A stretch of DNA of 38,743 nucleotides, from positions 1-38,743 of the forward strand of contig CALWAR010000103.1 in assembly GCA_944375765.1 (NCBI GenBank). Reading direction: 5' to 3'. The position numbers and the translations under genes were made by a program. This document shows positions 17,500-36,125 of this stretch, in pieces. The notes beneath the pieces were generated by a model. It was not told the DNA's origin and ran no database searches. It saw only the letters and a list, made by a program, of their open reading frames with translations. Position 1 is the first letter of the stretch; every line of letters starts with the position of its first letter. The stretch comes from an uncultured Mediterraneibacter sp. (GTDB taxonomy: Bacteria; Bacillota; Clostridia; Lachnospirales; Lachnospiraceae).

Positions 17500-19563
17500 A
17501 TGAAGAGATTACTGAATAACGCAGTGTCGCTTTTCGTGATAACGATCGTGCTGCTGCTTATTATCCCACTGAGTCCGGTGCTTCTGGACGTCATGATCAT
17601 TATAAATATTTCCCTTTCAATGATCATCCTTCTGATCAGCATGAATATCAAGTCGCCGCTGGAATTTTCCATTTTCCCGTCGCTGCTTCTGGTGACAACG
17701 CTGTTCAGGCTCGGGATCAATGTATCTTCCACCAGGAATATCCTGACGAACCAGGGAGAGGCCGGAGCAGTGATCCATGCGTTCGGAGATTTCGTCCTGC
17801 AGGGTAATGCGGTCGTAGGATTCATTATCTTTATCATCATACTCCTCGTGCAGTTCATCGTTATCACCAAGGGCGCCGAGCGTGTGGCAGAGGTTGCCGC
17901 AAGGTTCACGCTCGACGCGATGCCCGGAAAGCAGATGGCTGTTGACGCGGACTTAAGTTCGGGACTGATTACAGAGGATCAGGCGAGGAAGCGCCGCTCC
18001 GATATCCAGAGAGAAGCCGACTTCTACGGAGCTATGGACGGTGCGACCAAGATCGTCAAAGGAGATGCAATCATGTCGCTTCTCATCGCGCTTGTCAACC
18101 TCGTGGGAGGTTCCGCGATCGGTATGCTCCAGGACGGAATGAGCTTCACAGAAGTCCTCTCGGTATACTCCATTGCGACGATCGGTGACGGCCTTGTCTC
18201 ACAGATCCCGGCGCTTCTGATCTCGACTGCCACAGGTATGATCGTTACACGTTCGGTTTCCGAGGGAAGCATGAACGGGGATGTGTCCAAGCAGTTCCTT
18301 GCACAGCCCCGTGCGATCATGATCGCCGGCCTTGTCCTGCTCGTTCTTCTGTTCGTGCCCGGTATGCCGGTGCCCCAGCTCCTTATCCTCGGAGTCGGGC
18401 TTATGATTATCGGCTACCGCCTGTCGCAGAAGATGAAAGCTGCGGCAGAGCACACAGAGACAGTTCAGGCGCAGGAAAATGCGGCCGCAGAGCAGGAGGC
18501 TACTCCGGAAGAATACTACAGAGATATCAACAATGTATATTCTCTGATCGGCGTCGAACCTGTGGAGATGGAATTCGGCTACAGCCTGATCCCTCTGGTG
18601 GATGAGTCAAGCGGCGGCAAAATGATGAACCGCATCGTGATCTTCCGCCGTCAGTACGCGCAGGAGATGGGACTTGTCGTCCCGTCCATCCGCCTCAGAG
18701 ACAGTTCGGCCCTGAACACGAACCAGTACAGGATCAAGATCAGAGGCGAGGAAGTGGCAAGAGGAGAGATCCTCGTAGACTACTATCTGGCGCTTGAGCC
18801 GTCGAACCCGTCCGGCGAGATCGACGGGATCGAGACGATCGAGCCGGCTTACGGCATCCCCAGCAAGTGGATCCTGCCGGAGAACAAAGAGATGGCGGAG
18901 ATCTACGGATATACGGTCATCGACCCGCTCTCCGTTATGGTCACTCATCTCTCTGAGACGGTCCGCAGACATGCCTTTGAGCTGCTGAGCAGGCAGGAGA
19001 CAGTACAGCTTGCGGACAACTTAAAGAAGACGGCTCCGGAGCTTGCAGAGGAGGCTATCCCGCAGGTAGTATCCTACAGTCTTCTCCAGAAGATCCTCGT
19101 CAACCTGCTCCAGGAGGGGATCCCGATCAAGGATCTGGAGACGATCGTGGAGACTGCGTCAGACTGCGTGACGGCGGGAACGGACTTCCACAATACGGTT
19201 GAGAACGTCAGAACCGCGCTGAAGCGTACGATCACGAGAAAGTTCTGCCAGGAGGGGCAGATGAGCGTGATTACTCTGGACGCCGATCTGGAACGGATGA
19301 TGGTGGAGAACCTGGTCAAAGGGGAATCCGGGATACAGATATCCCTGAACCCGGATACCGTACAGAGCATGATTACACAGCTTGGCGAAGAGATGAAGAA
19401 GTTCCAGGAACTTTCCAGAGAGCCGGTGCTTCTGACAAGCCAGGTGCTCCGCTTCTATGTACATCAGCTCCTGGAACCTGTCTATCCTGACTTAAGCGTA
19501 CTGGCATTCCAGGAAGTAACGAACAACATCCAGATACAGGTGATCGGCAATATCACTCCATAA
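17500..19563 (+). CDS. flhA: Flagellar export gate protein FlhA
   Basis: FlhA (687 aa) is the nonameric gate and substrate-docking ring. The N-terminal half holds about eight membrane helices. It includes SPLEFSIFPSLLLVTTLFRL and GINVSSTRNIL, then the FHIPEP-type loop with FTLDAMPGKQMAVDADLSSG and the RKRRSDIQREADFYGAMDG charged segment. The C-terminal cytoplasmic domain (about 345-687) docks chaperones. The ribosome binding site is weak: GGAG lies about 15 bases before the ATG, so translation may be coupled to flhB. No flhF or flhG follows. Confidence 0.97.
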   Translation: MKRLLNNAVSLFVITIVLLLIIPLSPVLLDVMIIINISLSMIILLISMNIKSPLEFSIFPSLLLVTTLFRLGINVSSTRNILTNQGEAGAVIHAFGDFVLQGNAVVGFIIFIIILLVQFIVITKGAERVAEVAARFTLDAMPGKQMAVDADLSSGLITEDQARKRRSDIQREADFYGAMDGATKIVKGDAIMSLLIALVNLVGGSAIGMLQDGMSFTEVLSVYSIATIGDGLVSQIPALLISTATGMIVTRSVSEGSMNGDVSKQFLAQPRAIMIAGLVLLVLLFVPGMPVPQLLILGVGLMIIGYRLSQKMKAAAEHTETVQAQENAAAEQEATPEEYYRDINNVYSLIGVEPVEMEFGYSLIPLVDESSGGKMMNRIVIFRRQYAQEMGLVVPSIRLRDSSALNTNQYRIKIRGEEVARGEILVDYYLALEPSNPSGEIDGIETIEPAYGIPSKWILPENKEMAEIYGYTVIDPLSVMVTHLSETVRRHAFELLSRQETVQLADNLKKTAPELAEEAIPQVVSYSLLQKILVNLLQEGIPIKDLETIVETASDCVTAGTDFHNTVENVRTALKRTITRKFCQEGQMSVITLDADLERMMVENLVKGESGIQISLNPDTVQSMITQLGEEMKKFQELSREPVLLTSQVLRFYVHQLLEPVYPDLSVLAFQEVTNNIQIQVIGNITP

Positions 19564-19596
19564 GCGGGCCGGGACTGAGAAAGCAGAGGAGGAGAG

Positions 19597-20400
19597 ATGA
19601 GTCATAGCACAGCATCATACGAACATATGACAAATGAAGAGCTTCTCGAAGAGTACCGCCGTACAGGAGACCTGGAAGTCAAGCAGGAGCTTGTACTCCG
19701 CTACGTGTATGTAGTCAGGACGATCGCCCTGCAGATGCGGGATATCTATCTCGGGTTCACCCAGGTCGAGGATATCATCCAGGAGGGTGTGATCGCTTTG
19801 ATGAACCTCCTGGACAAATATGACAGTACGAAAAACGCCAAGTTCGAGACTTATCTCTCCCGCAGGATGAGAGGGCTGATAATAGATATCGCCCGCAAGC
19901 AGGAATGGGGCTCCCGGAACGTGCGCAGGAGCATGCGGGAGATCGAGGCCGCCGTGGCGGAGCTGACGGTGAAAAACGGCAAGACGCCCGACTCAAGGAC
20001 CGTGGCCGACCACCTCGGTATCCCCTATGACAAATACCAGGAGATCATAGGGAAGAACAGTCTTCTCTCCATCGCCTCGCTGGATACGATACTGGAGGAA
20101 GCGCAGGAAAAGAAACGGGCCGCCCAGGTTCCGACAGCCGAGGAGGAGCAGCAGCCCGAGGAATCGTATCTGCGCAAAGAACTTTCCGAAATCCTGGAAA
20201 AAGGCATCGACAGCCTGAAAGAAAAGGAGAAGATTATTATTTCTCTCTATTATGTCGAAGAACTAAATATGAGAGAGATCGCCCAGGTACTGGATGTGAG
20301 CGAACCGCGCGTCTCGCAGCTCCACTCAGGCGCGATAAAGAAACTCAGAGAATATATCGAACGGGAATTCCAGATGACTCCCGGATCAAAGAAAGGATGA
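19597..20400 (+). CDS. fliA: RNA polymerase sigma factor FliA (sigma-28)
   Basis: This sigma factor (267 aa) directs transcription of late flagellar and chemotaxis genes. Region 2 contains YLGFTQVEDIIQEGVIALMN and FETYLSRRMRGLIIDIARKQ, region 4 contains YYVEELNMREIAQVLDVSEP and RVSQLHSGAIKKLR. These are the WhiG/FliA-type motifs. The stretch after region 2.3 reads EWGSRNVRR where the family usually has DWxPRSVRR. Its likely targets in the window are the promoters before fliD and flgM; its inhibitor FlgM is encoded at 32092. RBS AGAGGAGGAGAG. Confidence 0.95.
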   Translation: MSHSTASYEHMTNEELLEEYRRTGDLEVKQELVLRYVYVVRTIALQMRDIYLGFTQVEDIIQEGVIALMNLLDKYDSTKNAKFETYLSRRMRGLIIDIARKQEWGSRNVRRSMREIEAAVAELTVKNGKTPDSRTVADHLGIPYDKYQEIIGKNSLLSIASLDTILEEAQEKKRAAQVPTAEEEQQPEESYLRKELSEILEKGIDSLKEKEKIIISLYYVEELNMREIAQVLDVSEPRVSQLHSGAIKKLREYIEREFQMTPGSKKG

Positions 20401-23056: not shown

Positions 23057-23977
23057 ATGGCAGAAACATCAATTCTACTGGAATCAGGCACAAATGAGAT
23101 TGAGATCATGGAGTTCACGATTTACGGAGAGCTTTACGGCATCAATGTGGCCAAAGTACAGGAAATCCTGATGTCGGCGAAAGTAAAGCCGATACCGCAC
23201 GCAAATCCGGCAGTGGAAGGGATATTCAAGCCGAGAGATATTATGCTGACTGTAGTGGACCTGCCTTATTATCTGAGCGGGGAGCCGACGACTCCTGCCG
23301 AGAAAGACCTGTTCATCATCACAAATTTCAATAAGATGCACATCGCTTTCCGCGTGAACACGGTAGTCGGTATCCAGAGGATCTCGTGGGCGGACATCCG
23401 CAAGCCGGACAAGACGCTCAACAGCGGCCGGGAGGAAGGCATCGCCACAGGGATCGCACAGTGCGGCAAAGACCTGGTCACTATACTGGACTTTGAGAAG
23501 ATCGTGGCTGAGATCGCGCCGGAGACGGGCATCCAGATCGACGAAGTCTCAAAGGTAGCGGAAGATATAAAGAAAGATGAGCCGATCCTGTTTGCAGAGG
23601 ATTCCCTGCTTCTTGCGAAGATGGTAGAAGAGTCCCTGCATAAGGCCGGATACAGAAATATTACAAAATTTAACAACGGCCAGGAGGCATGGGACTATCT
23701 CAGCGGGATTCGGGACGACCCGGATCTGCACAGGAAAGTGTCTCTTATTATAACGGATATCGAGATGCCGGAGATGGATGGACATCACCTGACAAAGCTG
23801 GTCAAGACCGACGGAAAGCTTAAGGAAATACCAGTCATCATCTTCTCATCTCTTATCAACGAACAGATGGAGGTAAAAGGGAGAGAAGTCGGAGCGGACG
23901 AGCAGCTCTCAAAGCCTGAGATCGGTCATCTTGTATCCGTCATAGACGGTCTGCTTGAAAGGAGGAAAAAAGCATGA
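23057..23977 (+). CDS. cheV: Chemotaxis coupling protein CheV (CheW-REC)
   Basis: CheV (306 aa) couples receptors to CheA through its CheW-like domain and adapts through its receiver. The CheW domain spans about 15-155, with YGINVAKVQEILMSAKVKPI as the recognisable segment. The receiver spans about 175-303: Glu181/Asp182 acidic pocket, phosphoacceptor Asp234 in LIITDIEMPEMDG and Lys286 in LSKPE. AAAGGGAGGAAAGG precedes the ATG. Its stop overlaps the next gene as ATGA, tying that gene to chemotaxis. Confidence 0.96.
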   Translation: MAETSILLESGTNEIEIMEFTIYGELYGINVAKVQEILMSAKVKPIPHANPAVEGIFKPRDIMLTVVDLPYYLSGEPTTPAEKDLFIITNFNKMHIAFRVNTVVGIQRISWADIRKPDKTLNSGREEGIATGIAQCGKDLVTILDFEKIVAEIAPETGIQIDEVSKVAEDIKKDEPILFAEDSLLLAKMVEESLHKAGYRNITKFNNGQEAWDYLSGIRDDPDLHRKVSLIITDIEMPEMDGHHLTKLVKTDGKLKEIPVIIFSSLINEQMEVKGREVGADEQLSKPEIGHLVSVIDGLLERRKKA

Positions 23978-25284
23978 AACATTTTGTAGTCAGACAGGCT
24001 ATAAAAGCCGCAGATGCGGACACAATACTGGGGTACGAACTTTTATTTGAGCGGGGAGGAGAAAGCCTGTACGGGGAGAAAGAAAACGCGGCGGCGGACA
24101 CGATCGCCAGCTTTCTCATGAACAACAGCGGGAAGATATTCAAGGATAAACAGATCTTCCTGACATTCACGCCGGCGCTTCTTCTGAGGAACACGCCGAA
24201 GATATTCCGGAAAGACAAGATCATCATCCAGATATCAGACAATCTGATCATCCATCCGCTTGCGATGCCGATCATCGAGAAGTTCCATAAAGCGGGATAC
24301 CGGTTTGCGATCAATGATTTCCAGTTCTCGCCGAGATATTTCAGCATGCTCGACTATGCGGACTATGTGCGCCTCAGTATGAAAGAGACGCTCTCGGCAA
24401 AAGACATGACGTCTATCGAGAACATCATCAATATGGCGCACGGTTTCGGGAAAAAGTGCATCATGACCGAGGTAAACACAAAAGAACGATACGAGAAAGC
24501 GCTCTCTGTGAAAGCAGATTATATCGAGGGAAATTATGTCGCGGAGACACTGTACGTCAAGGAGGAGAAGACCTCCTATATGCAGGGCAACCTCTTCCAG
24601 CTTATCGTAGCGCTCTCAAAAGAGGAGCCGGATGTGGCTGAGATCGAGGAGATCATAAGCCGCGACGCGGGTCTTAGTTACTCCATCCTCAAGCTGGTCA
24701 ACTCCGCATATTACGCGCTCCGCCACAGGACGGCATCCATACAGCAGGCTGTCATGACGATGGGGATCAGCCAGCTCCGCCAGTGGGTATACATGCTGAG
24801 CCTGCGCGGGGATGAGAGCGAGGGATCAGGCGAGATGCTGAGGATCTCGTTCCTCAGGGCGAAGTTCGCAGAAGAGCTTATCGCAAACACTGAGATGAAG
24901 TTCCTCACTCCGGCAGAGGCGTACATGATGGGCATGTTCTCTACGCTGGAGTATATGATAGACGCTCCGATCGAAGAGATCCTCGCAGAGATCCCGGTCA
25001 GCGACGACATCAAAGCGGCGATCATCCGCGGAGAGGGCGACGCAGGAAAACTTCTGGAACTGGTGATCTGCTACGAGAAAGCCGACTGGAAACGCTGCCA
25101 GGTTCTCTCAGAAGAGCTCGGCTTACAGGCGTCCCGGTTGTCCCAGATATACATCAACTGTGTGGAGGAAGTCAGCACAGTATGGGACAGCCTGACCGAA
25201 GACTACGCAAGACCGGGAGAGGGCGGCCTCTTTGCCCCGCAAACAGGAACGGACGGCGAAAAGCTCGAGGACGTCCTGCAATAA
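23974..25284 (+). CDS. Degenerate EAL plus HDOD domain protein (YuxH type)
   Basis: This 436-aa protein has an N-terminal EAL-like domain (about 1-195) and a C-terminal HDOD domain (about 205-395). EAL appears as GYELLFER; the DDFG metal motif reads NDFQF, the catalytic Asn and the KxD motif are not seen, and Gln replaces the first metal Glu in IIIQISDN. Phosphodiesterase activity is therefore unlikely and ligand or partner binding more likely. HDOD shows ISRDAGLSYSILKLVNSAYY and MGISQLRQWVYMLSL, without the HD metal site. The ATGA overlap with cheV and short gap to the ParA gene suggest joint action. Confidence 0.88.
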   Translation: MKHFVVRQAIKAADADTILGYELLFERGGESLYGEKENAAADTIASFLMNNSGKIFKDKQIFLTFTPALLLRNTPKIFRKDKIIIQISDNLIIHPLAMPIIEKFHKAGYRFAINDFQFSPRYFSMLDYADYVRLSMKETLSAKDMTSIENIINMAHGFGKKCIMTEVNTKERYEKALSVKADYIEGNYVAETLYVKEEKTSYMQGNLFQLIVALSKEEPDVAEIEEIISRDAGLSYSILKLVNSAYYALRHRTASIQQAVMTMGISQLRQWVYMLSLRGDESEGSGEMLRISFLRAKFAEELIANTEMKFLTPAEAYMMGMFSTLEYMIDAPIEEILAEIPVSDDIKAAIIRGEGDAGKLLELVICYEKADWKRCQVLSEELGLQASRLSQIYINCVEEVSTVWDSLTEDYARPGEGGLFAPQTGTDGEKLEDVLQ

Positions 25285-25296
25285 AGGAGGAAAAAA

Positions 25297-26067
25297 GTGG
25301 CAGTTACATTTGTATTAACCAACCAGAAAGGCGGGGTCGGCAAGACGACCACCACCGCAGCCCTGGCGGCAGGGCTTGCAGCGGCGGGTAAGCGGGTGCT
25401 TGCCATCGACCTGGACCCTCAGGGAAATCTGGGCTTTAGTCTCGGACTGGATATCGACACCGACCAGTCTTCTACGATCTATGAAGTGCTCAGGAACAGA
25501 GTGTCGATACGCGAAGCTCTGCACAGGACGGAGGTGTGCGACGTCATACCGTCCAACATCCTGCTGAGCCAGGCGGAGATAGAGCTTCAGACAGACAACA
25601 GGGTGACTCTTTTAAAAGAAAGCCTGAAAGAAGTCGCGGCGGACTATGATTTTATCGTCATAGACACGCCGCCGTCGCTCAACATACTGACGATGAACGC
25701 CTACGCCGCTTCGGACTACCTGATCATACCGATGGCGGCCGAGATCCTGAGTCTGGTAGGGCTGATACAGCTCCAGGAGACAGTGGAGGGAGTAAAAAGC
25801 TCTGTGAATCCCCGGCTTCGGGTGCTTGGGATCCTGCTGACGAAATACAACAGGAGGACCCGCCTTGCGGCAGACGTCCTTGAGATGGCGTCGACAGTGG
25901 CGGAACAGACGAATACAGCTCTCTTTGACGCGAAGATCCGTGCGGGAGTAGCTGCGGCTGAGGCCCCTGCACACGGAGAAAACATCTTTGCATATGCCCC
26001 GGCGTCCAATCCGGCAAAGGACTACGAGTGCTTTGTCGGGGAAGTTCTGGAGCGGATCAAAGATTAG
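25297..26067 (+). CDS. ParA/Soj-type P-loop ATPase
   Basis: This 256-aa protein has the deviant Walker A of ParA/MinD ATPases, KGGVGKTT at residues 11-18, then IDLDPQGN (Asp40) and Walker B FIVIDTPPS (Asp123). It lacks the C-terminal membrane-targeting helix of MinD and FlhG, so it looks Soj-like rather than FlhG-like. Such ATPases move on nucleoid DNA and position plasmids, chromosomes or chemoreceptor arrays (ParC, PpfA). Start is GTG with AAAGGAGG. No parB or parS is near; the next gene may encode its partner. Confidence 0.88.
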   Translation: MAVTFVLTNQKGGVGKTTTTAALAAGLAAAGKRVLAIDLDPQGNLGFSLGLDIDTDQSSTIYEVLRNRVSIREALHRTEVCDVIPSNILLSQAEIELQTDNRVTLLKESLKEVAADYDFIVIDTPPSLNILTMNAYAASDYLIIPMAAEILSLVGLIQLQETVEGVKSSVNPRLRVLGILLTKYNRRTRLAADVLEMASTVAEQTNTALFDAKIRAGVAAAEAPAHGENIFAYAPASNPAKDYECFVGEVLERIKD

Positions 26068-26080
26068 AAGAGAGGAACTT

Positions 26081-26779
26081 ATGAGCAGGAAGACAAATAA
26101 AACAACGCATGTGCTCAATCTGCTCTCGAACGGAGTGAAGAAGCAGGAAGAGAGCGATGCAAAAGAGAACAAAGAAAAGGTAATACAGGAAACAGAAAGC
26201 GCCGCGGCATCGCAGCAAAAACAGGAGACGGAAGAAAAAGGAGAAACTCCCGGCGTATCCGTGGTGCACAGAGGAAAGGACGCCGTGGCAGACCTCATAA
26301 AGGAAAGCCTCGAGGAAGAACTGCAGACGGCGGACAGACAGGAAGCAAAAGAGGAGCCGGAGGATGAAGCCGGCGCTGCAGAGGACCGAAAGGGCATAGG
26401 AGAGGCCGGCAAAGACCAGACAGCCGGTCAGGAGAGCGGGACTGACAAGCCTGCAGAGGCCCCGGCAGAAGAAGAGCCGGAGGATGAGTTCGTGACCGTC
26501 AACGTGATGGAGAAGCTGGTAAAGGAACGCGCCCCGAGCTATATCAGGCAGTTCCATATATGCGGCTGCAGGAGATGCCTCGCGGACGTGACAGCGCTCG
26601 CCCTGACCGGACTCCCCGCAAAATATGTCGTGATCAATAAAAATGCAGTGTCGCCCCTGATGAACTTCTATACAGTGAAATATGCCGGGCTGATCACCGT
26701 GGAGGTCACAAAAGCCTGCCTGACGGTCCAGGCAAAGCCTCACCACAACACAGAAAAGGCAGATAAAAAAGACGAATGA
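26081..26779 (+). CDS. ComFB-domain protein with basic N-terminus and acidic linker
   Basis: This 232-aa protein has three parts. Residues 1-22 are basic and partly hydrophobic (MSRKTNKTTHVLNLLSNG then VKKQ). Residues 23-135 are acidic, Glu/Lys/Ala-rich and likely disordered, with one helical stretch at about 65-90. Residues 138-221 form a ComFB domain: NVMEKLVKE, the CGCRRC cysteines (Cys161, 163, 166), ALALTGLPAKYVV and the end KPHHN. ComFB domains in cyanobacteria are reported to bind cyclic dinucleotides. An upstream in-frame ATG at 25988 lies inside the ParA gene; AGAGGAACT supports 26081. Confidence 0.85.
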   Translation: MSRKTNKTTHVLNLLSNGVKKQEESDAKENKEKVIQETESAAASQQKQETEEKGETPGVSVVHRGKDAVADLIKESLEEELQTADRQEAKEEPEDEAGAAEDRKGIGEAGKDQTAGQESGTDKPAEAPAEEEPEDEFVTVNVMEKLVKERAPSYIRQFHICGCRRCLADVTALALTGLPAKYVVINKNAVSPLMNFYTVKYAGLITVEVTKACLTVQAKPHHNTEKADKKDE

Positions 26780-26891: not shown

Positions 26892-29240
26892 ATGGCAACA
26901 ATAGACGCACTTACCTCAACAGGCGGCAATTCGATCAGAGGATACGGCGGACTTGCCAGCGGTCTCGACAGAGACACGCTGATCGAGCAGCTTACCGCAG
27001 GGACGCAGGCGAAGATCGACGCGGCGAACCAGCAGAAGACGAAACTGGAGTGGGAGCAGGAAGCGATCCGTACGATCACGGATATGATGTATGACTTTAC
27101 GAACAAGTATACTTCATACTCCTCCTCGACAAACCTGCTCAGTTCCTCATTTTACGGCCGTACAGACATAACGGTCAACGGGGAGAACGGGAAATACCTC
27201 ACGGTATCCGGCTCTACCCAGACGTCGGAGCTCATGAAAGTACTGGGCGTTAAGCAGCTCGCACAGAAAGCCACGCTCAACATGATAACAAACGCATCCG
27301 ACAGAACGCTTTCACTTGGAGCGATATCCACAAATTTGAAAGACAATACGAATGTGAACGTAGTAGGCGGCGAGAAGCTCTACGTTAAGGTGGGAAACAC
27401 GAGATACACTGTCACACTCGGCAGAGGGGACGGCTACTCCTACAACACGGCGGCCAATACAGCGGATGCGATCAATGAGTCGCTCAAACAGGTGTCTCTC
27501 TCGAACGGCAGGACGCTGGCAGACGTGCTGCACGTCTCAGAAAGCGGAGGAAAACTTGTCTTTCAGAATACTGATAGTGCAGGAAATACAGTTACTATCA
27601 CAGGAGGCACTGGAGAGGCTCTTGACGCTCTCGGACTTACAAATAAACCTGACGACGGATTTGTGATCAACCACAATAATTCGCTGACCGCTACTGGCAA
27701 TGTGAATGCGATCCAGCAGAAAAGCATCGCTTCCCAGCTTGCAGGCAAGTCGCTGAGTTTCCAGTACAACGGCACGACGAAATGGATCAAACTCCCCGCA
27801 GAGAGCGAACTGAATACGCTGGATGATCTGAAAACCCATCTCCAGAAAGAGTTAAACAGCGCTTTTGGAAACGGCAGGATCACGGTAGATATCACATCAT
27901 CGGGCAGCAACACAGGTTCTCTTACATTTAAGACGACACTGCCTGACGGCAGCGATGACGACACTTCCACACTTTCGATCACAGCGTCCACCGGGAACCT
28001 GACAGGAGAGGATTCGCTCTTTGGGATACAGGACGGAGAGTCCAACAGACTGAACCTCAACGCGAAGCTCTCAGAGGCAGGGCTTGCGAATAGCACTGCT
28101 AATCTCACAACCCCGCAGCTTGTGATTAACGGAAAGACAATCCAGGGGATCACGGCGGACAGCACGATCCAGGAGATCATGGACGCCGTCAACAGCGATC
28201 CGGACGCGGGCGTGACCATAACCTATCAGCAGAATACAGACCGCTTTATCATCACCTCCACGCAGGACGGCGCGAGCGGCCAGGTAAGCGTATCGGGCAA
28301 CGTGGCGGACGCGCTGTTTGGATCGAATGGGACAGACTATAGTGTGACGGCCGGACAGGACGCCATCATCGCCGTGCAGTATGCTGGCAGCAACCAGGTG
28401 ACAGAGATTACCAGGGGAAGCAACACGATCAGCATAGACGGCCTGAACATCACGGCAAACGGCACGTTCGGATATAACTCGACCGGACAACTGGATCAAA
28501 CCGCAGAGGCGGTCACGTTCACGGCAAAAGTAAACACTGACACAATAGTCGACGCCGTCAAGACGATGGTCGAAGAGTTTAACGAGATCGTAGAGCATAT
28601 CAACACCCAGGTGTCGACCAAGCCGGACAGAGACTATCAGCCGCTGACGTCCAGCCAGAAAGCCGAGATGAGCGAGGACCAGATCAAACTCTGGGAGGAT
28701 AAGGCAAAAAAAGGCCTCCTCTTCATGGACAGCGATATCAGAGGACTGGCGGACTCCCTGCGGTTCGTTATACCGGAGAACTTCCGGACCGCTCTTGAGG
28801 GGATCGGAATCACCGTATCTTCGGACTATTCGGACAACGGTAAGCTGACGCTCGACGAGAGCAAGCTGAGAGCTGCCCTTGAGTCTGACCCGGAATCTGT
28901 CAGAAATGCTCTGGCCTCCAGCGTTCAGACAAATGCGGACGGAACTACGACGCAGGGCGGCCTGCTGACAAATATCAAGACTATCATGGACAGATATGCC
29001 TCAACGACAGGGGCTACAAAGGGTATCCTCATAGAGAGGGCAGGATCGTCCCACTCTGTTACAAGTATGCTCGACAACGCGCTGCTTGATCAGATCAACG
29101 AGGTCGACGACAGGATCGCAAGCCTGACGGAGCGGCTCTCGACCGAGCAGGACAGGTATATCTCACAGTTCACCCAGCTTGAGCTTCTGGTTTCTCAGAT
29201 GAACAGCCAGAGCAGCTATCTGTCATCGCTTATGGCGTAA
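26892..29240 (+). CDS. fliD: Flagellar filament cap protein FliD
   Basis: FliD (782 aa) caps the filament and folds flagellin at the tip. The N-terminal IRGYGGLASGLDRDTLIEQL fits the FliD_N pattern. The central region is Thr/Asn/Gly-rich and includes a flagellin_IN-like stretch (LVINGKTIQGITADSTIQEI). FliD_C (about 555-770) has DTIVDAVKTMVEEFNEIV and ends QFTQLELLVSQMNSQSSYLS followed by SLMA. It is longer than Bacillus FliD (about 500 aa), with a large variable exposed region. AAAGGAG precedes the ATG at 26892; an in-frame ATG at 26868-range upstream frame is not supported. Confidence 0.95.
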   Translation: MATIDALTSTGGNSIRGYGGLASGLDRDTLIEQLTAGTQAKIDAANQQKTKLEWEQEAIRTITDMMYDFTNKYTSYSSSTNLLSSSFYGRTDITVNGENGKYLTVSGSTQTSELMKVLGVKQLAQKATLNMITNASDRTLSLGAISTNLKDNTNVNVVGGEKLYVKVGNTRYTVTLGRGDGYSYNTAANTADAINESLKQVSLSNGRTLADVLHVSESGGKLVFQNTDSAGNTVTITGGTGEALDALGLTNKPDDGFVINHNNSLTATGNVNAIQQKSIASQLAGKSLSFQYNGTTKWIKLPAESELNTLDDLKTHLQKELNSAFGNGRITVDITSSGSNTGSLTFKTTLPDGSDDDTSTLSITASTGNLTGEDSLFGIQDGESNRLNLNAKLSEAGLANSTANLTTPQLVINGKTIQGITADSTIQEIMDAVNSDPDAGVTITYQQNTDRFIITSTQDGASGQVSVSGNVADALFGSNGTDYSVTAGQDAIIAVQYAGSNQVTEITRGSNTISIDGLNITANGTFGYNSTGQLDQTAEAVTFTAKVNTDTIVDAVKTMVEEFNEIVEHINTQVSTKPDRDYQPLTSSQKAEMSEDQIKLWEDKAKKGLLFMDSDIRGLADSLRFVIPENFRTALEGIGITVSSDYSDNGKLTLDESKLRAALESDPESVRNALASSVQTNADGTTTQGGLLTNIKTIMDRYASTTGATKGILIERAGSSHSVTSMLDNALLDQINEVDDRIASLTERLSTEQDRYISQFTQLELLVSQMNSQSSYLSSLMA

Positions 29241-30112: not shown

Positions 30113-30133
30113 GTTTTGGTTGAGAGGAAATAT

Positions 30134-30928
30134 ATGGAAGCAGTCGTTTTTGAAAATGTAAATAAAGTATTCGCGCGGGGCGAGGTGGCGGCGGAAGACG
30201 TGTCTTTCAGCATCAAAAAAGGAGAGTTCGTCTTTGTCATCGGGCGCAGCGGAGCGGGAAAGAGCACGCTGCTCAGGCTGATGAGCGCGCAGGAACGCAC
30301 GACCTCGGGCCGGATATGGGTAAACGGCCAGGAACTGGACAGGATACCGGAGAAGAAGATGCCTTATTTCCGCAGACAGATCGGGGTGATGCAGTCGGAT
30401 CTGGGACTGCTGGACGACAGGACGCTGTTTGACAACGTATATCTCTCTGTCATCGCCACAGAACAGCAGGGGCGGAAAGGAAAACGGCGGGTGGAAAGCC
30501 TCCTCCGGGCCATGGGGATCATCGACCGGGCAAGGTTCTATCCGCGGGAAGTCTCCATGGGGGAGGCGGCGCGGGCGCTCCTGGCGCGGGCCATGGTGAT
30601 CGGCCCGTCGATCCTGATCGCAGACGAACCGACTGCGAACCTTGATCCCGACGCATCGTGGGACTTGATGTGTCTTCTGACGGAACTCAACCGCCAGGGA
30701 ATCACCGTAGTGGTGGCAAGCCACAATCAGGAGCTGGTGTCCATTATGCGCAGGCGTGTGATCACACTCTCTGCGGGACGGCTCGTGGCAGATGAAAAGA
30801 ATGCCGTCTACAATGTGCGTGCGGCAGATGCCATGGAAGAAAGAAGGATATTACATGAGCGTGAATATAGAAAGCAGAATGGAACGCTATCTGATCACTC
30901 TGATCGCGGAGGCGGTCAACCAGAGTGA
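30134..30928 (+). CDS. FtsE-like ABC ATPase with altered signature motif
   Basis: This 264-aa ATPase is closest in layout to FtsE. Walker A is GRSGAGKST (37-45), the Q-loop is Gln87 in MQSDLGLLDD, Walker B is LIADEP (161-166) and the switch His is His197. The signature, LSGGEQQR in FtsE, reads VSMGEAAR at 140-147, with Met for the first Gly. No FtsX-like membrane partner lies in the window. About 35 residues after residue 228 exceed the FtsE length and overlap the next gene by 74 bases. GAGAGGAAA precedes the ATG. Its role in a flagellar locus is unknown. Confidence 0.8.
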   Translation: MEAVVFENVNKVFARGEVAAEDVSFSIKKGEFVFVIGRSGAGKSTLLRLMSAQERTTSGRIWVNGQELDRIPEKKMPYFRRQIGVMQSDLGLLDDRTLFDNVYLSVIATEQQGRKGKRRVESLLRAMGIIDRARFYPREVSMGEAARALLARAMVIGPSILIADEPTANLDPDASWDLMCLLTELNRQGITVVVASHNQELVSIMRRRVITLSAGRLVADEKNAVYNVRAADAMEERRILHEREYRKQNGTLSDHSDRGGGQPE

Positions 30929-32003
30929 ATCAGTAGAGAGCAAATGGAAGCCCTCGTGGGAGTGGATCTACAAGACGTCAGATTATCATCACGTGTCTAA
31001 TCTTGTCTACTATAAAGTTATGTGGTCAGACGACGTCCGTGTCCTGAAGTGGAAAGAGCGGTTTGAGACGCGTTACAGAAACGCGATGCGGCTGCAGGAG
31101 AGGAACCTTATCCTGAGAAAGCAGCTTGAGGCTGAGCTTGAAAAGAGAGAGATGCACTCTCTTTTCCTCGGAGAGTCAATGATACTGGAATACTATCCGA
31201 GGCCGGAGATGAGGATGCCGGAGCCGATAGAGCTGCTCGTACAGAAGAAGAGATACGACGACGCCCGCAGACTCCTCAGGTCCATGGGATTCGACGAAGT
31301 CCGGGACGGCCGCGGGCAGGGGACGGGGCTGTTCGCCCGCATACCGGACCAGAAGATCAGGCTCTACGATGCGCTCCCGTTTACCGGCCGTAAAGTCAGG
31401 GCATGGTTCCGGGAGATGCCCGGAGAACTCCCGAAAGAGGACGAGCGTTCTTATATACACTGTATGAACGAAGAGACGACGTATATCTACTTTATCTGCA
31501 GGCTGGCGGACAAGTTCGCCAGAGGACAGCTTGAGATACGGGATATCGTGGACTTCTGGCTGCTGCTCTCAAAAGAAGGCCCGCAGTTGAAATGGAAAGA
31601 AGTCAGAGAAGAGATCGAGAGTATGGATCTCGACACGTTCGGAGAATATATCGTCAAGCTGACGGGCAAATGGTTCGGCAATATGCACTTTCATGAGGAC
31701 AACTATATCCTCAACGACATGCAGACATACATCATCTCAAAAGGCACGCTGGGCCGCCGCGAGAGCGAAGACGTCCTCCCGCTGGTCACGAGCGTGGTAG
31801 ACAGCTACTACAGAGACCTGAGAAAAGAGGAAAGGAGAAGAATGCGCGAATGGCGATTCCCTCCCATCGACTACATGGTGTCTTCTTTTCCCCGGCTGAA
31901 GAAGTGGCCCATCCTCCTTCCGGTATACTGGCTCATAAGACTGATGAAAAACAGGAGATTCAGAAAAAAAAGAAGAGCCAGGACAGAGGAAAGCCGAGAA
32001 TAG
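30855..32003 (+). CDS. NTP_transf_5-like protein lacking catalytic residues
   Basis: This 382-aa protein follows the layout of the uncharacterised nucleotidyltransferase family NTP_transf_5: HHVSNLVYYKVM near residue 45-56, then SLFLGESMILEYYPRPEMR where the family has LLKGxxLxxxxYPxPxxR, and EPIELLV where it has DIDLLV. Both metal-binding Asp and the KG lysine are thus replaced (Leu104, Pro124, Glu126), so it is probably not an active transferase. The end FPRLKKWPILLPVYWLIR is also family-like, with a basic tail. AGAAGGATA precedes the ATG. The first 74 bases lie inside the ABC gene. Confidence 0.65.
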   Translation: MSVNIESRMERYLITLIAEAVNQSESVESKWKPSWEWIYKTSDYHHVSNLVYYKVMWSDDVRVLKWKERFETRYRNAMRLQERNLILRKQLEAELEKREMHSLFLGESMILEYYPRPEMRMPEPIELLVQKKRYDDARRLLRSMGFDEVRDGRGQGTGLFARIPDQKIRLYDALPFTGRKVRAWFREMPGELPKEDERSYIHCMNEETTYIYFICRLADKFARGQLEIRDIVDFWLLLSKEGPQLKWKEVREEIESMDLDTFGEYIVKLTGKWFGNMHFHEDNYILNDMQTYIISKGTLGRRESEDVLPLVTSVVDSYYRDLRKEERRRMREWRFPPIDYMVSSFPRLKKWPILLPVYWLIRLMKNRRFRKKRRARTEESRE

Positions 32004-35504: not shown

Positions 35505-36125
35505 ATGGAACCCCTGCTGAAGATTACAACAATACCAATGGAATACGAAATCACGATCCAGCACGCGCGGCTTGAGCGCGGACAGAGCAGGCCTCCGGTC
35601 GTAGAGATATCGAGGCAACGAGGCGGACTCAATATGCGCAGTCAGCCGGCAAGACTGCTTCTTGACAGTTTTGAAGCGCGCAACAGCATAATTCCTTCAA
35701 CACGGACCGCGATCTATCAGAACGCACAGAAGGGGCTGCGTGCTGCGGGTGAAGCGGCTCAGAGTTACTCGAATGAAGCGGCTCAGATGAGATGGTCCAG
35801 GCCGGGACAGGGCGGGGAGATGCTCTCACAGATATTTGAGCAGAGAGCTCAGATGCCTACGGGACAGTTTCAGTTAGGATTCCTGCCGACGACGGGAGTC
35901 AATATCAACTACCAGGCGGGAAACCTTACGACGTCCTACCAGATGGATCGGCTGGCTTTCAACCTCAAGCTGAACAACAGCGAGGTAGAGTATATCCCGG
36001 GCAACATAGATATCGTTGTGACACAGTATCCTGACGTAGTCATCGAGTATATGGGAAGCCCGGTCTTTGTACCGCCAAGTGCGGCTGAGTTCTTTACCGG
36101 CGAATCAGTAGACCTGGTCGCGTAA
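35505..36125 (+). CDS. YviE family (DUF6470) flagellar operon protein
   Basis: This 206-aa protein matches the YviE/DUF6470 family found between flgL and fliW in Bacillus and Clostridia. Recognisable parts are LKITTIPMEYEITIQHARLE at the N-terminus, RLLLDSFEARNSI, and YIPGNIDIVVTQYPDVVIEY near the C-terminus. No enzyme motif, signal or membrane segment is visible. Function is unknown. AAAGGAGGAAG precedes the ATG. A TATAAT at 35471 lies in the gap to flgL but lacks a -35. Confidence 0.85.
   Translation: MEPLLKITTIPMEYEITIQHARLERGQSRPPVVEISRQRGGLNMRSQPARLLLDSFEARNSIIPSTRTAIYQNAQKGLRAAGEAAQSYSNEAAQMRWSRPGQGGEMLSQIFEQRAQMPTGQFQLGFLPTTGVNINYQAGNLTTSYQMDRLAFNLKLNNSEVEYIPGNIDIVVTQYPDVVIEYMGSPVFVPPSAAEFFTGESVDLVA

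Follow-up and report, generated by a model that had tools for sequence, protein, structure and literature searches.

The sequence analysed here (the window) is a stretch of 38,743 nucleotides (nt) from an uncultured Mediterraneibacter sp. (GCA_944375765.1, contig CALWAR010000103.1), and this report concerns two adjacent genes within it, parA and comFB, which encode a Soj-like ParA ATPase and a ComFB-domain protein. Both lie in a flagellar operon that extends from fliE (161-472) through flhB, flhA, fliA, flgF, flgG, cheC, cheD, cheV, a gene for a protein with EAL and HDOD domains (EAL-HDOD), parA and comFB to fliD, fliS, flgM, flgN, flgK, flgL and fliW, where the names of genes without a Pfam match (including flgK and flgL) were read by eye from the translations. 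The preliminary description of this DNA had regarded cheV, EAL-HDOD, parA and comFB as a tight cassette at the end of the flagellar operon. The spacing was confirmed by the coordinates and Pfam: cheV (23057-23977, + strand; CheW and receiver (Response_reg) domains) overlaps the EAL-HDOD gene (23974-25284, + strand; PF00563, 45.7 bits; PF08668, 68.9 bits) by ATGA, parA starts with GTG 12 nt 3' of the latter and encodes 256 amino acids, and comFB, encoding 232 amino acids, lies 13 nt 3' of parA. The terminal position was wrong, since the genes from fliD to fliW come after the cassette; fliD itself (26892-29240, + strand; PF07195/PF02465) has its ATG start 112 nt past comFB. The two genes and the elements on which the argument turns are the following.

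25297..26067, + strand: parA, Soj-like ParA ATPase (PF13614, 186.6 bits), core of the module
25321..25350, + strand: deviant Walker A motif NQKGGVGKTT of ParA, invariant in 18 aligned sequences
26081..26779, + strand: comFB (PF10719), candidate partner of ParA, which is encoded directly upstream in 75 of 80 loci
26081..26128, + strand: N-terminal basic tag MSRKTNKTTHVLNLLS of ComFB, a predicted ParA-binding/activating peptide

The conservation of this arrangement was analyzed in 200 genomes of the same family, one per genus (family sample), and in 291 genomes of the class (class sample), the window genome (G000) being common to both. ParA proteins of the window type were defined in the family sample by at least 226 bits, the next matches reaching at most 196 bits, where Soj-like proteins begin, and in the class sample by a cut-off of E 1e-60. 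PF10719 was found in 34 of the 200 family genomes, including that of the window, and the window-type ParA in 18, all of which (18/18) carry a same-strand ComFB domain after ParA, starting 222 to 871 nt past the ParA match. The class sample contains five genomes with window-type ParA; ComFB follows it in G000, G440, G358 and G316, and in the fifth, G462, a tagged protein with a degenerate domain takes this place. A wider scan with a pattern derived from the ComFB domain alone returned 89 relatives, which were ranked with the window protein and reduced to the best 80. These 80 loci come from taxa that include Mediterraneibacter, Dorea, Muricomes, Enterocloster, [Clostridium] symbiosum, Lacrimispora, Hungatella, Anaerotignum, Oribacterium, Flavonifractor and Acutalibacter, and at least nine of them (L075, L082, L084, L090, L101, L113, L115, L128 and L139) repeat sampled genomes, so that the samples overlap. 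As a control, ParA over 90 bits was sought in frames of at least 150 amino acids at 17 loci with short or receiver-fused ComFBs (L051-L065, L041 and L044), and none had it (0/17). The exact four-gene order on one strand was found in only 18 of the 80 loci, with EAL-HDOD on the opposite strand in 12 more, two of them without a visible ParA. The proposed foursome was therefore rejected as a conserved unit in favor of the ParA-ComFB pair (75/80), although as a recurrent module with ParA and ComFB side by side the cassette held up. Nor is the neighborhood unique to this genome, which the preliminary description had named as grounds for discarding its reading; the pair is present in 18 of 200 genomes and in 75 of 80 loci. 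The module thus occurs inside the flagellar gene clusters of many Clostridia. No description of a ParA-ComFB pair was found in literature searches, which left out subscription papers and preprints.

Variants of the arrangement were also observed. Three sampled genomes (G015, G046 and G148) carry a more distant ParA (46-47%) and a ComFB with a different common N-terminus, beside flgN-flgK; distant pairs of this kind, with a different conserved N-terminus and beside flgN-flgK-flgL, are those at L046, L047 and L049. At L041:9464-10132 and L044:9898-10560, a ComFB domain stands behind what looks by eye like a receiver domain, with no flagellar genes among the open reading frames listed nearby.

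The paired ComFB proteins begin with a basic tag of consensus MARKTNKTxHVLNLL; for an alignment of 19 ComFBs the consensus start is MARKxNKTxHVLNLL. The strict pattern [NSH][KR]T.HV[LMI].L[LIVMF] was matched by 72 of the 75 paired ComFBs, and the other three (L097, L112 and L142) are one residue off, so that a neighbor with a charged N-terminal peptide accompanies ParA at all 75 paired loci. Among 74 anchored paired ComFBs, the tag core holds Lys/Arg in 74, Thr in 74 and His in 73, and the mean net charge is +2.9 over the first 14 residues and -22.6 over the linker. When 53 sequences were divided into regions by hand, the most frequent residue at a position had an average share of 0.75 in residues 1-16, 0.24 in the first linker, 0.44 in the middle-helix region, 0.26 in the second linker and 0.58 in the ComFB domain. 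An AlphaFold2 model of ComFB (mean predicted local distance difference test score, pLDDT, 74.8) showed a helix at residues 7-17 with a pLDDT of about 68-70, a second helix at 67-90 and a confident domain at 137-218.

ParA was not seen in five of the 80 loci; in two of them (L120 and L135) the contig stops beside ComFB, which makes them uninformative. In the other three, L083, L085 and L090, the surroundings of ComFB are intact, ParA is absent and so is the tag (3/3, in two lineages); with tblastn at E 10, neither L083 nor L090 gave a ParA match, and the two matches obtained in L085 were at chance level. L085 and L090 both belong to Scybalomonas, and the genome of L090 (G162, 97% complete) contained only Soj-like and partial ParAs in a whole-genome search. 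A ribosome-site-like stretch lies 5' of the L090 comFB start. Because the FlhA of G162 falls inside the group of pair-bearing genomes in the FlhA tree described below, ParA was probably lost there. L083 is closest to L115 in CheV (89% identical) and FliD, and to L115 and L093 in EAL-HDOD. Comparison by eye of its ComFB start, MATTNNETPDILHLL, with that of L115, MARKSNKTSHVLHLL, revealed the changes R3T, K4T, K7E and H10D, together with S5N, S9P and V11I, while LHLL is retained. The reverse case is provided by L149 (G462), where ParA is followed by a protein starting MARSTKTKHVMDLV that is tag-like and has no Pfam ComFB match; this candidate partner (L149:8757-9317) is devoid of the CxCxxC cysteines and gives a weak profile match only (probability 41).

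Partners of ParA/MinD ATPases in other systems bind through charged, disordered N-termini (PMC10241942, excerpt), which leads to the prediction that ComFB is the partner of the flagellar ParA. The tag-bearing ComFB can thus be named from sequence as the predicted partner of a ParA without ParB, which is the strongest result of this analysis, and the loci that have neither ParA nor the tag amount to a natural experiment that names this partner. Because such partners vary so widely, many ATPases of the ParA type have been called orphans (PMC10241942). The arrangement resembles the positioning systems ParA-ParB, McdA-McdB and ParC, as outlined in the same excerpt, in that a deviant Walker A ATPase neighbors a protein whose N-terminal peptide is charged and whose linker is poorly conserved, and it differs from them in that the partner bears a ComFB domain and is linked to fliD. 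The literature searches found no description of a ComFB domain as a ParA partner.

The ParA of the window has the KGGxGKT/S deviant Walker A motif and a ParA family match, and its nearest solved sequences are ParA/Soj. This closeness raised the question of whether it might be a ParA for chromosome partition (Soj) that lies by chance in a flagellar operon, in agreement with which only one other ParA-like protein (35% identical, not Soj-looking) was detected at E 1e-25 in the incomplete window genome, and no Soj of the usual 40% kind. However, Soj-like matches fetched from eight of the 18 pair genomes each stand beside a ParB-like protein, as recognized by a script pattern (8/8), and these eight chromosomal Soj proteins form their own group in the tree with a support of 99/100. 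The flagellar ParAs form no single supported group in this tree, and the window ParA has ComFB rather than a ParB gene next to it. On the grounds of the tree and of the separate Soj loci in eight of 18 pair genomes, identity with chromosomal Soj was rejected, and a partition role for this gene is very improbable. The second ParA-like ATPase of the window genome (L181, G000:C85) carries the motif NNKGGSGKS.

The gene content around the pair was compared in the 59 loci whose sequence reaches 5 kb or more past the pair in each direction. Within 5 kb, fliD is present in 59/59 loci and fliS in 58/59, with fliD upstream on the other strand in 31 loci and downstream on the same strand in 22; in six further rows the fliD frame overlaps ParA, and these were read as upstream divergent too. 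In contrast to this constancy, CheV lies within the same distance in 35/59 loci and EAL-HDOD in 23/59, so that CheV and EAL-HDOD look like optional accessories. A search of 21 genomes at E 1e-30 detected CheV in 14 of the 18 pair genomes; in 12 of these it adjoins the pair. EAL-HDOD was found in 30 of the 80 fetched loci, and its window type (over 300 bits) in 10 of the 34 PF10719 genomes, in all 10 of them beside the pair, five times upstream on the same strand and five times on the opposite strand. Active EAL domains have the catalytic residues of the motifs EAL, NLS, ELTE and DDFG, with DDFG at the position where NDFQ stands here. By eye, the EAL domain appears degenerate, with Glu22 retained in 30/30 sequences and the other motifs altered, NDFQ being present in most, and that of the window does not have the catalytic residues of an active phosphodiesterase. 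In place of EAL-HDOD, a repeat-containing, secreted-looking protein is encoded between cheV and parA at L035:11474-13572 and L036:7371-8426, and L035 also has in this interval a hemerythrin with a chemoreceptor-like tail.

These data bear on the role of CheV, which the preliminary description had taken as the link between the module and chemoreceptor arrays. ParC/ParP reportedly localise such arrays in Vibrio (PMC5706961), and PpfA/TlpT is a ParA-type ATPase system for chemoreceptor positioning. The window resembles both in having a ParA-type ATPase near a chemotaxis gene, and a module that positions arrays via CheV would agree with this precedent and with the CheW domain of CheV, which adjoins the pair in the window and is near it in 35/59 loci. 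Nevertheless, no CheV lies within 5 kb in 24/59 loci, where fliD is constant, and four of the 18 pair genomes are without this CheV at E 1e-30, so that the constantly ParA-linked CheW-domain partner of ParC/ParP has no counterpart here. Moreover, the basic tag is on ComFB and the window CheV, which starts MAETSILLESG, has none, and L083 keeps EAL-HDOD and CheV although ParA is gone. The assignment of CheV as the link was accordingly not supported, and array positioning is an unlikely function for the module. The link of ParA to its cargo is more likely to be ComFB, through its N-terminal tag, than CheV, and the cargo is more likely the flagellum, because fliD is the one constant neighbor of the main group. 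ParA and ComFB likely cooperate in placing flagella or flagellar parts.

The remainder of ComFB comprises two further elements.

26279..26350, + strand: middle helix of ComFB, residues 67-90, from the structure model
26498..26740, + strand: ComFB domain with CxCxxC cysteines and a C-terminal His; its fold matches 4wai and 8hja

PF10719 matched residues 140-220 with 57.6 bits (cut-off 25), and C161, C163, C166 and H222 are invariant in 56 ComFB sequences, which suggests that H222 may be a fourth ligand beside the CxCxxC cysteines. A profile search of the PDB retrieved 4wai (Bacillus subtilis ComFB, 3.1e-9) and 8hja (CdgR, 8e-5), and chains of the same two entries rank first in Foldseek (E 2.2e-4 to 3.0e-3; for 8hja, E 1.6e-3 and prob 1.00), the next match having an E of 3.5. 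According to excerpts of the respective papers, B. subtilis ComFB is an obligate dimer that binds zinc (PMC4381287), Synechocystis ComFB binds c-di-AMP (cyclic di-AMP) and c-di-GMP (cyclic di-GMP) (PMC12313861), and the CdgR dimer binds two c-di-GMP (PMC13075795). The window protein is predicted to share the fold of these receptors and, like B. subtilis ComFB, has the CxCxxC cysteines. It differs in that the N-terminal tag, the middle helix and an acidic linker are added and in that it stands in a flagellar context instead of one of comF or hfq. The middle helix (I73 in 89% and L77 in 98% of 53 sequences) is retained, by eye, in the ParA-less ComFBs of L083, L085 and L090, which suggests that it serves another partner and is perhaps a cargo-binding element. 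GGDEF genes were found in all 20 genomes searched, four of them in the window genome, which leaves a reading without c-di-GMP unsupported, and a motif scan followed by Pfam detected GGDEF-EAL or GGDEF-HD proteins near ComFB in four of the 80 loci (L084, L117, L120 and L127). The cyclic-dinucleotide response suggested in the preliminary description therefore appears plausible in view of the ComFB/CdgR fold, the degenerate EAL neighbor and these four loci.

A ComFB-domain protein beside fliD might also act in another way, and instead of position ParA and ComFB could control, depending on c-di-GMP or c-di-AMP, flagellar gene expression or the export of FliD, flagellin and other late substrates. 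The constant linkage to fliD and fliS, the flgN-flgK neighbors in G015, G046 and G148 and the action of CdgR via the transcription factor DevH (PMC13075795, excerpt) are all in agreement with such a role. By itself, however, it leaves unexplained both a dedicated ParA and the absence of the tag where ParA is absent, and we regard it as improbable.

A flagellar ParA calls for comparison with FlhG, and the relevant part of the window is as follows.

17500..20400, + strand: flhA-fliA junction, 33 nt, without flhF or flhG, from translations

No FlhF over the cut-off was found in the window genome, and window frames of at least 100 amino acids contained neither DQAxxLR nor a further MinD-like motif. 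Downstream of flhA at L150, L151 and L152 come flhF and then a flhG-like open reading frame with DQA...LR and GKGGVGKS. The FlhF-FlhG switch, which governs flagellar number and placement (PMC12826062, excerpt), resembles the present system in having a ParA/MinD-superfamily ATPase in the flagellar cluster. The ParA described here differs in being Soj-like, in having no DQAxxLR N-terminal helix and in lying near fliD and not after flhA or flhF, and its partner would be ComFB instead of a GTPase of the signal recognition particle type.

The two systems never occurred in the same genome in either sample. FlhA was detected in 110 of the 200 family genomes and FlhF over the cut-off in 88, the latter in 0/18 pair genomes versus 88/92 other FlhA-positive ones; those with neither pair nor FlhF are G103 (with an FlhF match just under the cut-off), G149, G162 and G199. 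In the class sample, FlhF is present in 92 of 109 FlhA-positive genomes, in 0/5 of those with window-type ParA versus 92/104 of the others, leaving 12 with neither, and four genomes have FlhF but no FlhA match. A FlhA tree of 48 rows, for which 28 of 31 chosen pair rows were available, placed all pair rows together with G162, G149, G288 and G382 in one group (support 100/100) that contains no FlhF row, and the pair label requires at least three changes on this tree. It is plausible that the pair took over the control of flagellar number or position exercised by FlhF/FlhG. The broader proposal, that a cyclic-dinucleotide-gated ParA-ComFB machine replaced FlhF/FlhG as the spatial and numerical flagellar controller throughout a lineage of clostridial flagellar systems (Lachnospiraceae, Anaerotignaceae, Oscillospiraceae and kin), is possible and should be taken as tentative. 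In L153, L154 and L155, FlhF-less clusters without the pair carry near flgG a gene that by eye looks like DUF342/FapA.

Taken together, these results lead us to a model, towards which we lean with modest confidence, in which tagged ComFB stimulates ParA and the pair positions a flagellum-associated cargo on the nucleoid, perhaps tuned by a cyclic dinucleotide that the ComFB domain would bind. The basic N-terminus of ComFB would bind ParA and stimulate its ATPase activity, ParA would bind the nucleoid, and the cargo, presumably the flagellum, would be held by the middle helix or by the ComFB domain. The latter may sense c-di-GMP or c-di-AMP, and the pair might control flagellar number or position where flhF and flhG are missing. 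If true, the model would provide a role for ComFB in Clostridia, a link between a cyclic dinucleotide and subcellular positioning, and an explanation of flagellar arrangement in common bacteria that have neither FlhF nor FlhG.

Several points weigh against this model. Pairing, linkage and tag are seen in the sequences, the interaction, ATPase, localisation and ligand steps are predictions, and the tag helix was modelled at moderate confidence. Only three intact loci without ParA are available, from two lineages, and in L083 other N-terminal residues have changed as well. Ranking the 80 loci with the tag-bearing window ComFB somewhat favored tagged ComFBs. The pairs of G015, G046 and G148 have another N-terminus and flgN-flgK, not fliD, as neighbors. 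The pair sits with late filament genes, which is an odd place for a factor that selects the site of the basal body, and control of late assembly therefore remains a rival. Regarding the replacement of FlhF, the pair systems fall into a single group in the FlhA tree, so that one event may account for the exclusion of FlhF, and G149, G288, G382 and the 12 class genomes with neither system indicate that the loss of FlhF does not require the pair.

Other genes recur in these clusters. Window positions 30116-32003, within the flagellar operon, encode an ATP-binding cassette (ABC) transporter ATPase, FtsE-like by eye, and an NTP_transf_5 protein, and relatives of both recur in many pair-bearing flagellar loci. 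Between flgL and fliW, positions 35505-36125 encode a DUF6470 protein, whose relatives are likewise present in many of these flagellar loci.

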